Source: Prochlorococcus marinus str. MIT 1214 (GTDB lineage Bacteria; Cyanobacteriota; Cyanobacteriia; PCC-6307; Cyanobiaceae). From it: a stretch of 64,000 nucleotides of DNA. A model generated the notes under the pieces. That model was not told where the DNA came from, searched no databases, and saw nothing but the letters and a program-made list of their open reading frames with translations. Both the position numbers and the translations under genes were made by a program. Shown here piece by piece: positions 7,786 to 51,509 of the stretch. The stretch covers positions 1,798,001-1,862,000 of the forward strand of contig NZ_CP114777.1 of assembly GCF_027359355.1 (NCBI RefSeq), in the 5' to 3' direction. Each line of letters starts with the position of its first letter. The first letter of the stretch is position 1.

Positions 7786-8643
7786 TTGAATCTGAGAGGT
7801 TTTTTAACACGCAAGGATTTGTCGACACGGTTATTGTTCGCTGGACTGATAATTCTATCCGTATATATAGGCATCTCTATTTTTATGCCACTATTAATCT
7901 CTTTAAAGATTATTCCTAATGGTGAATTTGGATTAGGGAATCCGATTTTTGCAGCTCCGTCTATAGATCACTGGTGTGGAACAGATCGATTAGGAAGGGA
8001 TGTTTGTGTTAGAACTTTGGCTGCGAGCGGGGTTGCGTTACAGGTCGTTTTTGTTGCCGTATCTCTTGCAGTTTTCGTAGGAATACCTTTGGGACTTTTG
8101 AGTGGCTATATTGGTGGGCTTTTAGATAGGATTTTAGTTCTTTTCATGGATACTCTTTATACCATTCCTGTCCTACTCCTTTCTGTGGTGATGGCATTTT
8201 TATTGGGGAGAGGCATATTGAATGCATCCATAGCATTGTGTGTCGTTTATATTCCTCAATATTTTCGACTTGTCAGAAACCAGACTTCACAGGTTAAATC
8301 AGAACTTTATATAGAGGCAGCAATATCAATGGGAGCTTCCCCTATTTGGGTAATAAGAAAGTACCTTCTTAAAAATGTCCTGACTTCTGTTCCTGTGGTC
8401 TTAACACTTAATGCTGCAGATGCTGTATTGGTCCTTGGGGGACTGGGATTTCTTGGATTAGGTCTTCCTGAGAATATTCCAGAGTGGGGAAGTGATTTAA
8501 ATATGGCATTAGTTGCATTACCTACTGGTATTTGGTGGACAGCGATATATCCTGGCATGGCTATGTTCGTTTTAGTGTTGGGTCTGTCTTTTATTGGAGA
8601 AGGCTTAGAGAAATTTATCAGTGAAACTAGTCTGCAGGATTGA
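7786..8643 (+). CDS. ABC transporter permease, oligo/dipeptide type (DppC/OppC-like)
   Basis: A 285-residue inner-membrane permease with about six transmembrane helices. The N-terminal periplasmic piece carries the family-typical HWCGTDRLGRDVCVR (about residues 63-77), and the coupling loop holds the EAA motif EAAISMGASPIWVIRKYLL (from about residue 177) that docks to the ATPase. It would form half of a peptide, nickel or similar importer, but the partner permease, ATPase and binding protein are not in this window. The TTG at 7786 is the start that includes the N-terminal helix; it lies in a T-rich leader. Confidence 0.88.
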   Translation: MNLRGFLTRKDLSTRLLFAGLIILSVYIGISIFMPLLISLKIIPNGEFGLGNPIFAAPSIDHWCGTDRLGRDVCVRTLAASGVALQVVFVAVSLAVFVGIPLGLLSGYIGGLLDRILVLFMDTLYTIPVLLLSVVMAFLLGRGILNASIALCVVYIPQYFRLVRNQTSQVKSELYIEAAISMGASPIWVIRKYLLKNVLTSVPVVLTLNAADAVLVLGGLGFLGLGLPENIPEWGSDLNMALVALPTGIWWTAIYPGMAMFVLVLGLSFIGEGLEKFISETSLQD

Positions 8644-8664: not shown

Positions 8665-9354
8665 TTAATACCTCATTTTTTCTGTTCTTGGGAGATCATC
8701 TATAATTTCACCTTTTTCATTAATTTCTGGATATTCTCTACCTTCATTCTTACACCATTCAGCTACCTCTGGGTAAGCCCACTCAAAGATCTTTTCTTTG
8801 TATGTTTCGTCGCTCATACCTTCTCCAGATTCAGGAATTATCTTTGCTGCTTGTCGTTGTCTTAGCGCTTCAAATAATAATGCTGATGCGGCAACTGATA
8901 CATTTAAAGATTCAACCATACCTCTCATTGGAATATGAATATGCTCATCCATTAGAATCGCGGCTTCTTCGCTTATACCCCATTTCTCGGCACCTAGCAC
9001 AAATGCTGTTGGCCCTTTGAAATCACATTTTCTATAGTCAATTGATTTTGGATTTAAGTTCGTACCATACAACTTAAATCCTTTTTTTTTAAGGACTTTT
9101 ATTGCCTCAGAGGTTTCTTTGTATTGGTTTATTTGGACCCATTTTTGACTTCCTTGAGCCGTGCTATTAAATGTTAAAAATTTATCTTTGTTGAAGATCG
9201 CATATGCCTCAAGAACACCCACTGCATCACAACTACGTATTATTGCTGAGAGGTTATGAGGCTTTTCAACATTTTCAATTAAGATAGTGAGATCTGAAAT
9301 TCTTTTGTTCAGTACTGATTTTAGACGTTCAAAACGTCTAGGTAGTAGAGGCAT
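8665..9354 (-). CDS. trmH: tRNA (guanosine-2'-O)-methyltransferase, SpoU/TrmH family
   Basis: A SPOUT-class methyltransferase of 229 residues. The three family motifs are visible: N-x-x-A-I-I-R-S-C-D-A-V-G (about residues 34-46), LGAEKWGIS (about 134-142), and the trefoil-knot C-terminal IPMRGMVESLNVSVAASALL (about 152-171) that binds S-adenosylmethionine. TrmH methylates the ribose of G18 in the tRNA D-loop. The C-terminal extension of about 50 residues is typical of TrmH. ATG start. It lies downstream of the porin gene but is separated from it by a strong terminator. Confidence 0.93.
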   Translation of the reverse strand: MPLLPRRFERLKSVLNKRISDLTILIENVEKPHNLSAIIRSCDAVGVLEAYAIFNKDKFLTFNSTAQGSQKWVQINQYKETSEAIKVLKKKGFKLYGTNLNPKSIDYRKCDFKGPTAFVLGAEKWGISEEAAILMDEHIHIPMRGMVESLNVSVAASALLFEALRQRQAAKIIPESGEGMSDETYKEKIFEWAYPEVAEWCKNEGREYPEINEKGEIIDDLPRTEKMRY

Positions 9355-47286: not shown

Positions 47287-48986
47287 TTCTGGTGGAAATA
47301 TTTCTCGGCTCTCTCAGCTTTTCCCCAAAGGACCTTCCCACCCCTATGACTAACAGTTCCAGGTAAGGAGCCTGATATCCTTTGCAGATTTTCAATTGGG
47401 ACCATAATTATTGGTGTAAGTTTGTTACCTCTACCACGGCTAAAAAAAGAAGCAAGATCAGCCGCTAATTGAATATCTTTCTCATTAATAAGTCCATTGG
47501 ATGATTTAAGTACAATATGGCTTCCAGGTGTTTCTTGAGCATGAAACCACAGATCTCCTTTTTTCCCTTTTCTTAGACTAATTAATTCGTTTTGCCTATT
47601 GTTAGAACCTATTTGAATCTTAATACCACTAGGACTTTGGATCTCTTTTATAGTTGCAACCTGATCCTTCTTCCTATTTGATTTAAACCTGGATGAATTT
47701 CTTTTTATGCAAATATATTCATCCACCTCTTCTTTAAGTTCAATAATTGAATCTAGTTTATTTTTATTAGCCTCATTATCCTCATACATTAATGAATCAA
47801 GAAATAATTCACAATATTCAATTTCTGATATTTTTTTCTTGTGAAAAATGATTCTATTTAGAATTGATTCCCGAGATCTTTTTTTTCTTTTGGCTTCTTT
47901 AAAAAGACTTTGAGACTCAATTATTTGCTTCTTTGTAGGAGACTGTAAAGTTAGAATATTATTAGCCTTATTTTGCATGGTTATATATTCAGAAATATTT
48001 TTAATTAATAATTCTTGCATTTCTAGTTTTCTAATTTCATCATTTTTTGACTTTTCTAGATCATGCTTTAATTTTTCTCTAATAGAAGTAATTTCCCTAT
48101 CTATAATCTTATTTGAATAGTATATGCCAAGGCTAAGACCAATTTTTGTTTTTTCAACCTTTGACTTTATTTTCCCCCAGACTACAAAATCAGTGGAGCT
48201 ATTGAAATTGATAGTGTAATTACTATTCTCAATATCTGATAGCCATTCCTTCCACCTTTTATATATTGCTTCCCATTGTTTTAATTCAATACTTGTTACC
48301 GATTGATTTATTAAATTAATTGCTTCATTGTAATTATTACTCGCAATTTGTAATGTTAGAGCTGGACTTATTCCTTGATAAGTGTCTTTTAGACTATTCT
48401 TGAATGTTGATGGAACCAAGCATATATTCTCTTTCCATGAATCAAATGATTCAGATATCTTAGGAACTAATCCTTTAAGTGGTGGTGGAGCTTTGTAAAG
48501 ATCTCCAGTCCCTATTGGTCTCAACCTTGAGTGTTTTTCTTTTATTTGTTTCCCAAGAGTAATTACTTTGCTTGATTTGTCTAAAAGTATAATATTGCTG
48601 TGTCTTCCCATCAATTCTACGACCATTTCTTTCTCAATTTCTTTACCAGGCCTGCTAGAAAATCTAAACCTTACTATTCTTTCAAACCCATTTTGTTGTA
48701 TCTCTAGCAGAGCTAAATTGACTAATAAATGTTTTAATTGTTTTGCTAATGTGCTTTTCTCACCATGTCTTTTTGGAGGTGGTATCTGGACTATTCTTGG
48801 GGACTCGGCAAGCCAGCTAATTTCTATCCATGTAAGTTTTTCTAGTGTTCTAAATCCTAATTGAAGAGTCTGTGAATCAGTTTGTTGTGCATTCTCAAAT
48901 CGACTTGGAACTATGTCCTGACTAAGTTCAAATACAACTGCTTTAAGGGTTGTTAAGTCCATTAATTGAATTGGAACTTTGTTCAT
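47283..48986 (-). CDS. NFACT family protein (RqcH/Rqc2-like, fibronectin-binding A)
   Basis: A 567-residue protein with the NFACT-N domain (MDLTTLKAVVFELSQDIVP...), a long coiled coil (about residues 290-430) and the C-terminal NFACT-R domain with the DLWFHAQETPGSHIVLKS signature. RqcH binds obstructed 50S subunits and adds alanine tails to stalled nascent chains, marking them for degradation. The ATG at 48986 has AAGGA about seven bases upstream. Diverges from gmk with a 68-bp gap. Known archaeal and bacterial homologues show this domain order. Confidence 0.9.
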   Translation of the reverse strand: MNKVPIQLMDLTTLKAVVFELSQDIVPSRFENAQQTDSQTLQLGFRTLEKLTWIEISWLAESPRIVQIPPPKRHGEKSTLAKQLKHLLVNLALLEIQQNGFERIVRFRFSSRPGKEIEKEMVVELMGRHSNIILLDKSSKVITLGKQIKEKHSRLRPIGTGDLYKAPPPLKGLVPKISESFDSWKENICLVPSTFKNSLKDTYQGISPALTLQIASNNYNEAINLINQSVTSIELKQWEAIYKRWKEWLSDIENSNYTINFNSSTDFVVWGKIKSKVEKTKIGLSLGIYYSNKIIDREITSIREKLKHDLEKSKNDEIRKLEMQELLIKNISEYITMQNKANNILTLQSPTKKQIIESQSLFKEAKRKKRSRESILNRIIFHKKKISEIEYCELFLDSLMYEDNEANKNKLDSIIELKEEVDEYICIKRNSSRFKSNRKKDQVATIKEIQSPSGIKIQIGSNNRQNELISLRKGKKGDLWFHAQETPGSHIVLKSSNGLINEKDIQLAADLASFFSRGRGNKLTPIIMVPIENLQRISGSLPGTVSHRGGKVLWGKAERAEKYFHQK

Positions 48987-49054
48987 TTATCATCCTTTTA
49001 AATTTATAAATAATGTAATTAACCTTTGGTAGGTAAATTAGATAGTATTTAGTT

Positions 49055-49621
49055 ATGTCATCTATAGGAAATCTTACTGTTCTTACTGGCCCAAGTGGGG
49101 TAGGTAAGGGAACAATTGTTAGGAAAATCCTCGAAAGCCATAGTGATGTATGGCTTTCTATTTCTGCCACTACTCGTAAACCAAGGTTGGGAGAAATTGA
49201 GGGAGAACATTATTTTTTCTTAGACAATAAAAAGTTTCAAGAAATAATTGATTGTGAGGGTTTTCTTGAGTGGGCTTCATTCTCTAATAATTTTTATGGA
49301 ACTCCAAAAAAAATAGTTAAAGAAAAAATAGAAAAAGGAACTAATGTTCTTCTTGAAATTGAATTAGAAGGAGCTCGACAAATTCGACAGTCTTTCCCCG
49401 AAGCATTACAAATATTTTTAGCACCACCAAATTTATATGAACTTGAAAAAAGAATTAGAGGTAGAGGTACTGAGAGCGAAGAATCTATTCGAGATCGTTT
49501 AGCAATAGCTAATAAGGAACTTATGGCCAGAAAAGAGTTTGATGCTGTAGTTATAAATGAAGATATAGAAAAAGCCTTCAAGGAAATTGAAGGCTTAATG
49601 GGATTGAAATTTAATAAATAA
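49055..49621 (+). CDS. gmk: Guanylate kinase
   Basis: A 188-residue kinase of the MAGUK/Gmk fold: P-loop GPSGVGKGTIV (residues 12-22), SATTRKPRLGE-x-GEHYFF, and the LID/GMP-binding segments through the TESEESIRDRLA region. It phosphorylates GMP to GDP. ATG start. The last 17 codons also contain a terminator for the opposite strand's psaJ-psaF unit. Confidence 0.97.
   Translation: MSSIGNLTVLTGPSGVGKGTIVRKILESHSDVWLSISATTRKPRLGEIEGEHYFFLDNKKFQEIIDCEGFLEWASFSNNFYGTPKKIVKEKIEKGTNVLLEIELEGARQIRQSFPEALQIFLAPPNLYELEKRIRGRGTESEESIRDRLAIANKELMARKEFDAVVINEDIEKAFKEIEGLMGLKFNK
49572..49596 (-). terminator. psaJ-psaF terminator inside the gmk 3' coding end
   Basis: Arms 49572-49581 and 49587-49596 are perfect 10-bp reverse complements around a five-base loop. 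On the minus strand the hairpin (AAGCCTTCAA / TTGAAGGCTT) is followed at once by a T run (TTTTTC), the standard intrinsic terminator layout. It lies 31 bp past the psaJ stop, so it should end the psaF-psaJ transcript while the same bases encode part of gmk. Confidence 0.8.
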
Positions 49622-49626
49622 TACTT

Positions 49627-49764
49627 TTAAAAAGACATTGGGTGGAAAAGTAAGTCTGGTACAAATCTATTAAATTCAACAATAATACCTGCTGTTAGAG
49701 CGATCCAAATCGTTGCCACGACTGGAGCTGATCTAAACCATTTAGTACGAAATAATTGAAACAT
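49627..49764 (-). CDS. psaJ: Photosystem I reaction centre subunit IX (PsaJ)
   Basis: A 45-residue single-helix protein ([20 protein letters not shown], helix about residues 13-30, then [13 protein letters not shown]). This matches PsaJ in sequence and size. It binds carotenoid/chlorophyll and stabilises PsaF and the docking side of PSI. It is downstream of psaF (43 bp) in the standard psaF-psaJ order. ATG start. Confidence 0.95.
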
Positions 49765-49807
49765 GATTGAAAAACGAAGTGATTTTTGAAGTTAAATAGA
49801 TAACTTT

Positions 49808-50365
49808 TTAGCCTCTTGGCCCATTAAGAGAAACATTATTGTCTTTGTCTCTAAGTTCTCCATTCTTTCCTTCTCTATTTGCATGTAGTGGCCATGCAGC
49901 TCCTCTTTTTAAGCATTGCCAAGCTAAATCGGTATCAATAATGATCTCATATTCTGCAGCATTCTTTTTACCTCTTACGGCTCTTACATATTCCCTTCCT
50001 GACCAGCCAATAATTCCTGCAATATAAATGAACATTACTCCGGGAATAAGTAAGTCTCCTTCATGTCCTCTGTTAATCCATGCACCCCATGGTTCGATGG
50101 GAGGACCAATGATCAAATGAGGAAGTCCATCATCTCCACAAAGTGCTTTGCTGTATCTCTCAAATCTTTTTATAGCTTGATCAGTTGAAGCAGTGCTAGC
50201 TCTCTCCTGGAATCGAGCATTTTCAGAACAAGTAACTAGCGCAGAAGCTGTAAAATCTGTAGGGGCTCTATCAGCGTTTAAAGCTGGGCCTGGTCTTGCG
50301 TCTGCTATTGGTGCTATTCCTAGGAAAAGGAATGCTGATAGCAGGATTGATAAAAGACGACTCAT
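49808..50365 (-). CDS. psaF: Photosystem I reaction centre subunit III (PsaF)
   Basis: A 185-residue precursor with a cleavable signal (residues 1-23, ending ADA before Arg24) and a lumenal domain holding two cysteines that can pair (C47 and C75 region), then one membrane helix (PGVMFIYIAGIIGWSG). PsaF forms part of the electron-donor docking side of PSI. ATG start. It is the first gene of psaF-psaJ. Divergent from tsaD with 73 bp between. Confidence 0.97.
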   Translation of the reverse strand: MSRLLSILLSAFLFLGIAPIADARPGPALNADRAPTDFTASALVTCSENARFQERASTASTDQAIKRFERYSKALCGDDGLPHLIIGPPIEPWGAWINRGHEGDLLIPGVMFIYIAGIIGWSGREYVRAVRGKKNAAEYEIIIDTDLAWQCLKRGAAWPLHANREGKNGELRDKDNNVSLNGPRG

Positions 50366-50438
50366 GAGTTCTGATTTCTTCCTATTGTCCTGTTTTAATA
50401 GGATTTCAATATTAAACTTAGTTGATAACTAGACAATA

Positions 50439-51509
50439 ATGTCAATAATTTTATCCCTCGAAACAAGTTGTGACGAGTCCGCCGTGGCTCTCGTTTCAAA
50501 TGAAGAAGGAAAGATTGAATTGATAGCTCATGAAATGGCATCGCAAATTGAAGAACATGCTAATTGGGGAGGAGTTGTTCCGGAAATTGCTTCAAGAAGA
50601 CATTTAGAAAATCTTCCATTTTTAATTGAAGAGGTTTTTTCAAAATCAAAATTACAGATAAAAGATATAGATGCAGTAGCAGCAACTGTTACTCCAGGAT
50701 TAGCAGGTTCGCTTTTGGTTGGATCAATTACGGCAAGAACCTTGGCTAATTTGAATCAAATTCCATTTTTAGGAATTCATCATTTGGAGGGACATCTGTC
50801 ATCAATATATTTGTCAGAAAATCATCCTAAACCTCCTTTCTTAGTCTTATTGGTTAGTGGAGGTCATACTGAATTGATAAAAGTAGATCTTCAACATAAG
50901 TATCAACGTCTTGGTAGAAGTCATGATGATGCGGCTGGAGAAGCTTTTGATAAAGTTGCAAGACTGCTGGGACTTTCGTATCCAGGGGGGCCAGAAATTC
51001 AAAAAATAGCTAAATCTGGAGATCCCAAAAAATTCTTATTCCCAAAAGGGAGAGTTTCTAAACCTGAAGGTGGTTTTTATCCATATGACTTTTCTTTTAG
51101 TGGTTTGAAAACGGCTGTATTTCGCCAGATAGAAAAAATCAAGTCAGAAAATAAAAAATTACCAATAGCCGATATTGCTGCAAGTTTTGAACACGTAGTG
51201 GCTGAGGTTTTAGTAGACAGGAGCTTGCGATGTGTCCTTGATCAAGGTTTAAATTCTCTTGTTTTAGTTGGAGGAGTAGCTGCAAACTTGCGATTAAGGG
51301 AAATGATGCTTGCAAAAGCATCTGAAAATTCAATTAATATTTCTCTTGCGCCAATGGAATTTTGTACTGATAATGCGGCAATGATTGGGGCGGCAGCTTT
51401 GTTAAGATTATCTTCAAATAATATTAAAAGTTCAATGGAACTTGGTGTTTCCGCTCGTTGGCCTTTAGAAAAATCAGATTTACTTTATGATTGCAATCCA
51501 CCTTTTTAA
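50439..51509 (+). CDS. tsaD: tRNA N6-adenosine threonylcarbamoyltransferase
   Basis: A 356-residue ASKHA-fold protein. Metal-binding His residues are in [10 protein letters not shown] (about residue 110), with SGGHTEL and the YPGGPEIQ segment, and [11 protein letters not shown] near the C-terminus. It installs t6A37 in tRNAs that read ANN codons, together with TsaB and TsaE. ATG start. Normal length. Formerly called Gcp or YgjD. Confidence 0.98.

Follow-up and report, generated by a model that had tools for sequence, protein, structure and literature searches.

How is transcription of the photosystem I genes psaF and psaJ terminated in Prochlorococcus marinus str. MIT 1214, where psaJ runs directly into a convergent gene? 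The locus lies in a 64,000-nucleotide stretch of this 1.93 Mb genome (contig NZ_CP114777.1, positions 1,798,001 to 1,862,000), hereafter the window, whose coordinates are used below unless another contig is named. On the plus strand, gmk (49055-49621) encodes a guanylate kinase of 188 aa (Pfam Guanylate_kin). On the minus strand, psaJ (49627-49764) encodes photosystem I subunit IX (45 aa; Pfam PSI_PsaJ), and psaF (49808-50365), located upstream of psaJ in the same direction and separated from it by a 43-bp gap, encodes photosystem I subunit III (185 aa). The spacer between the stop codons of gmk and psaJ comprises 5 bp (49622-49626), which is too short for a terminator. The answer that we propose from sequence comparison is that psaF-psaJ transcription is probably terminated by a hairpin near the 3' end of gmk, which would act as an intrinsic (Rho-independent) terminator of moderate strength and would have replaced an intergenic one.

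A candidate terminator inside gmk

A sequence-only reading of this DNA had reported a perfect 10-bp hairpin with a T-rich tail on the minus strand, inside the convergent gmk, and this was confirmed by a consensus terminator scan. The hairpin, read on the minus strand from 49596 to 49572, consists of two arms of 10 nt each (49572-49581 and 49587-49596) that are 100% complementary and enclose a 5-nt loop, TTTCC; its dG is -12.2, and it is followed by the tail TTTCTATATC. The U-rich tail as a whole, TTTTTCTATATC, spans 49560-49573 on the minus strand, its first two T being common to stem and tail. The hairpin lies just after psaJ, as reported, with 30 nt rather than 31 bp between the psaJ stop codon and the stem. 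It is likewise near the end of gmk, albeit not in the codons for the very last residues: the stem covers codons 173-181 (K-A-F-K-E-I-E-G-L), M182 lies outside it, and seven residues (182-188) follow. Together, hairpin and tail are contained within codons 169-181.

The element thus has a stable hairpin with a U-rich tract directly 3' of it on the transcript strand, as in intrinsic terminators, and its terminator score, calculated with a formula and tail weights taken from the literature, is a moderate 7.0 (rank 23 among 150 candidates in a 464-kb sample of the genome). Only four of the stem pairs are G-C, and the tail is interrupted. The stem is also stable on the plus strand (dG -13.1 vs -12.2 on the minus strand), but no T-run follows it there, the sequence reading AATGGG (AATGGGATTGAAA), and no plus-strand terminator candidate was scored at the window junction (L005). 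The hairpin thus appears to be one-directional. A search of 48900-50500 against Rfam gave no match with an E of 1 or below.

In the proposed mechanism, RNA polymerase would run about 30 nt beyond psaJ into gmk antisense, the nascent RNA would fold into the stem, and the polymerase would pause and release at the U-rich tail, ending a transcript that psaF and psaJ presumably share. The moderate score leads us to expect partial read-through into gmk antisense. A search of the genome for the Rho RNA-binding domain yielded no match at E 0.001, with the same search positive in 9 of 14 control genomes, so that intrinsic signals should matter in this organism.

Another perfect 10-bp hairpin is present in gmk near its 5' end (49133-49158, plus strand), followed by TATTTCTGCC. 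It has no evident role and was used below for comparison.

Chance expectation within the genome

To estimate how often gmk would form such a structure by chance, each of its codons was redrawn from local usage with the protein fixed, and the last 60 codons were scored for a hairpin with a tail. An element of equal quality was obtained in 3 of 3000 synonymous redraws. The stem is built in part from codons that are uncommon locally, namely, GCC (11.8% of Ala codons), TTC (24.6% of Phe), and GGC (13.0% of Gly).

The genome sample consisted of the window and 20 further stretches of the same genome (464 kb in total). Among compact hairpins (at most 32 nt, dG of -12 or below, tail at least 3.2), of which there were 17, 13 are intergenic, one lies over an ORF end, two are in ORFs in the sense orientation, and the only one antisense within an ORF is that of psaFJ/gmk. 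Without the length limit, 14 antisense and 12 sense hairpins were found in 380.6 kb of ORF sequence, that is, 0.037 antisense hairpins per kb. Gene ends are numerous in any genome, and a single hairpin of this type at one of them by chance would not be surprising; it is the placement and the comparison with relatives that carry the argument. A genome-wide rule of terminators hidden in convergent coding ends is unsupported: antisense hairpins are not enriched near stop codons, with a density, at a lenient threshold and with all ORF ends pooled, of 0.254 per kb in the last 60 nt vs 0.451 per kb deep inside ORFs.

The scan detected any terminator at all at 11 of the sample's 138 convergent gene ends and none at the remaining 127, suggesting that operons in this genome may not need one; the count is based on heuristic ORFs of at least 90 aa, so that psaJ was missed and the junction was counted as gmk-psaF. 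RNA-seq of MED4 defined 337 3'UTRs, and in these ARNold identified only 11 significant termination signals (PMC3898218). This scarcity cuts both ways: a conserved terminator after photosystem genes is notable, and yet operons manage without one.

Several other antisense hairpins were observed in the sample. One, antisense in the 3' end of a tilS-like (PP-loop) gene (L136:13266-13310; dG -14.8; tail ATTTTTTTTA), lies 58 nt after a convergent RNase J gene and is a further candidate of this type in the genome. Another (L138:11277-11321; dG -16.3) lies 30 nt after ndk, over the last codons of a convergent FAD-dependent oxidoreductase gene. The top-scoring antisense in-ORF hairpin of the sample is in the window itself (9050-9081, in the minus-strand ORF 8665-9354), about 400 nt past the end of a convergent gene at 8643, and is followed by a T run when read on the plus strand.

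Conservation among close relatives

We compiled 97 loci containing both psaJ and gmk, having left out 25 of 122 initial loci in which either gene was absent (non-cyanobacterial gmk matches among them), and added 20 more; merging identical junctions left 96 distinct ones. The two genes are convergent in all of the 97 loci. In the window's clade, the psaJ-gmk spacer is 5-24 bp, and 23 of 29 distinct junctions carry a tailed hairpin inside gmk, at a distance of 30-44 nt from psaJ. The other six (L006, L020, L021, L023, L026, L078) have no scoring hairpin and an intact gmk; weaker stems are kept in L021 (dG -6.1), L026 (-5.5), and L078 (-5.8), and no substitute terminator was found in any of the six. 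Loss of the stem with retention of the protein, which the sequence-only reading had named as an argument against its proposal, thus occurs in a minority of the clade.

Codon tests were performed on 28 sequences, with L076 and L079 left out because their gmk is partial. Synonymous change in six stem codons was compared with that in residue-matched codon columns elsewhere in gmk. No synonymous stem-codon change was found in 21 of the 28 sequences, compared with 11.3 expected (P 0.026), and nested sets gave 21 of 27 (P 0.0195) and, without L006, L021, and L078, 21 of 25 (P 0.013). Parsimony over all 28 sequences, with Gly180 omitted owing to its low conservation, required 6 stem-codon changes vs 13.8 expected (P 0.07). 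A parsimony test on the 22 intact sequences (P 0.003) was set aside as circular, the sequences having been chosen for being intact. GCC and TTC are kept in all 22 intact sequences and GGC in all 21 with a glycine, an observation that is partly circular for the same reason. In the small tree of the 28 sequences, those with an intact hairpin do not form a clade.

The comparison hairpin near the 5' end of gmk indicates how much retention is worth. At dG -11 or lower, it is found in 15 of 28 relatives vs 20 of 28 for the psaFJ hairpin; at dG -10, the numbers are 15 and 22 of 28. Because a gmk hairpin without an evident role is kept in many relatives as well, retention among close relatives is, on its own, weak evidence. 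A covarying stem, which the sequence-only reading had suggested as support, is absent in the window's clade by pair counting, with a single two-sided cell that was equalled by 118 of 500 shuffles. The suggestion that the hairpin constrains the C-terminal codons of gmk is moderately supported by these sequence comparisons: the synonymous-change tests point to constraint, and the parsimony result, the six losses, and the comparison hairpin weigh against it.

The psaJ-gmk junction in other lineages

The region within 80 nt after psaJ was scanned uniformly in the 96 distinct junctions. Among the 16 with a long spacer (50 bp or more), 14 have an intergenic terminator, one has a hairpin straddling the gmk stop codon (L115), and one has none (L109). 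None of the 80 short-spacer junctions has an intergenic terminator; 23 in the window's clade have a hairpin inside gmk, and in 38 none was detected. Outside the two main Prochlorococcus groups, the 22 short-spacer junctions include 19 without a terminator, two with a straddling hairpin (L087, L099), and one, from a Synechococcus with a 4-bp spacer (L055), with the hairpin CCGCTCTAGATCAATCAGAGCGG inside gmk, followed by TTTCG. The clade labels used in the analysis, LLI and HL, are those that we presume to apply.

This distribution suggests that the signal moved from the spacer into gmk codons, spacer shrinkage presumably having preceded the relocation. The location of the signal inside gmk would follow from the shortness of the spacer in the window's clade, and the in-gmk hairpin, made in part of the uncommon codons GCC, TTC, and GGC, would replace the ordinary intergenic terminator of the long-spacer relatives.

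Among 29 junctions of the other Prochlorococcus group, an A+T-rich hairpin spans the gmk stop codon in 16, and none was detected in 13. Three of these hairpins (L097, L098, L102) have a terminator score in either orientation. Hairpins of up to 14 bp around the gmk stop were seen across L093, L095, L097, L098, L100-L105, and L143-L162. For the covariation analysis, 24 of 26 distinct 51-nt segments were aligned, after removal of L103 and L105, in which the end of gmk is out of register. Of the cells on the gmk strand, 92.6% are paired vs 83.4% in shuffles, 28 two-sided cells were counted vs 11.2 in shuffles (reached in none of 500) and 9 in the best slid control, and the covariation score is 0.326 vs 0.164 for the best slid control. 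On the psaFJ strand, the values are 89.0% pairing, 29 two-sided cells, and a score of 0.289, with 0 of 500 shuffles reaching any of the three. The numbers of pairs with two-sided change and of further pair types were not above shuffles on either strand. Four pairs covary, one between two gmk codons (Leu/Ile with Thr/Ser) and three joining a gmk codon with the spacer. Independent covariation events are few and the split between subgroups explains much of the signal; the slid controls, which keep the relatedness, stay far below it.

We tentatively suggest that spacer shrinkage drove the psaFJ terminator into gmk more than once via different hairpins, wholly inside the gene in the window's clade and in the Synechococcus L055, and across the gmk stop in the other Prochlorococcus group, where the codons and even the amino acids used at the end of gmk (as in Leu/Ile with Thr/Ser) may track terminator pairing.

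A different arrangement was observed in L118, where a perfect 14-bp hairpin (dG -17.6) in the last gmk codons, located 49 to 14 nt before the gmk end and followed on the plus strand by ATCTTTTAATTAG, coexists with an intergenic terminator.

Alternative explanations for the hairpin

The hairpin could be a chance feature of gmk, kept through close kinship and the conserved protein, in which case psaFJ transcripts would end diffusely or where they collide with the transcription of gmk. With strong tailed antisense hairpins at a density of 0.037 per kb of ORF, some are expected near gene ends, and the retention of the comparison hairpin, the single parsimony P of 0.07, and the absence of the hairpin from 6 of 29 relatives all fit this explanation, which we nevertheless consider unlikely. 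Only 3 of 3000 synonymous redraws match the hairpin, unchanged stem codons exceed those in residue-matched columns (P 0.013-0.026), the uncommon GCC, TTC, and GGC codons persist in the intact sequences (with the circularity mentioned above), and in all 23 scored junctions the hairpin lies 30-44 nt after psaJ, where long-spacer relatives carry terminators. The identification of the hairpin as the psaFJ terminator in the sequence-only reading is thus partly supported, by its position, strand, and tail, its rarity under synonymous resampling, its retention in 23 of 29 junctions, and the intergenic terminators of long-spacer relatives.

Two other explanations accept a function for the hairpin and differ in what it does. 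It might block 3' exonucleases on psaFJ mRNA after termination further downstream, and trimming of transcripts back to hairpins is indeed known in bacteria. This is improbable, given that a U-rich tail adjoins the stem in 23 of 29 junctions (partly by construction, because the scan requires a tail) and that no consistent second terminator was found in the 230 nt after psaJ, the only one being a weaker candidate 172 nt after psaJ in 1 of 29 junctions (L002). A role in the plus-strand gmk mRNA, as a 3' stability element or a processing site instead of a psaFJ terminator, would agree with the equal stability of the plus-strand stem and with the pairing on both strands seen in the hairpins that span the gmk stop in the other Prochlorococcus group; we regard it as highly improbable. 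A plus-strand terminator candidate at the gmk end was scored in no more than 3 of the 29 clade junctions (L007, L008, L018), and ribosomes would be expected to unwind the stem, which precedes the gmk stop codon. The strand comparison itself is ambiguous: in L022, the stem is held by a G-U pair on the minus strand only, which favours the psaFJ strand, whereas the plus strand gives the better pairing in L026 and L078.

Relation to known terminators and significance

Under the terminator interpretation, the window hairpin resembles known intrinsic terminators in its perfect stem, short loop, U-rich tail, and position just downstream of the last gene, but differs from them in its stem with only four G-C pairs, in its interrupted tail, and in being wholly antisense within a coding sequence. 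The use of bidirectional terminators by convergent gene pairs is established, and in Zymomonas the convergent class is reported to be over-represented among mapped intrinsic terminators (PMC7566282). Several long-spacer relatives and the straddling hairpins at the psaJ-gmk junction belong to this class, whereas in the window hairpin only one strand, instead of both, carries a T-rich tail, and there is no spacer to occupy. As in excludon-type 3' overlap of convergent transcripts, the psaFJ transcript is predicted to end inside the coding sequence of its neighbour, the candidate terminator being located in facing codons 173-181; the expected overlap is only about 60 nt, however, and there is no evidence of mutual regulation. 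A review notes that start and termination sites are often located within a neighbouring gene (PMC7154746).

Terminators overlapping a convergent gene are already known in general, including in compact genomes. The value of this case lies in the comparison across lineages, with the signal at different places in different lineages, and in the covariation of the hairpin that spans the gmk stop in the other Prochlorococcus group. No literature on a psaJ-gmk terminator was found among the matches listed in a wider search judged by titles and abstract openings, and no mention of a terminator, gmk, psaF, or psaJ was found in PMC2518516. If the proposal is correct, this locus would be a worked example of a non-coding signal outliving its non-coding space by entering the codons of a neighbour. 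The psaJ-gmk junction is kept across the sampled family, which allows a testable reconstruction of when the spacer was lost relative to the relocation of the terminator. In streamlined genomes, studies of synonymous rates and codon usage at the ends of genes may then detect the termination signal of a neighbour. The general understanding of termination is unchanged by this case.

A second psaJ-like open frame is present in the same genome, outside the window (C1:1791058-1791189), with 61% identity to PsaJ over 44 residues; similar second copies were also seen in several relatives.
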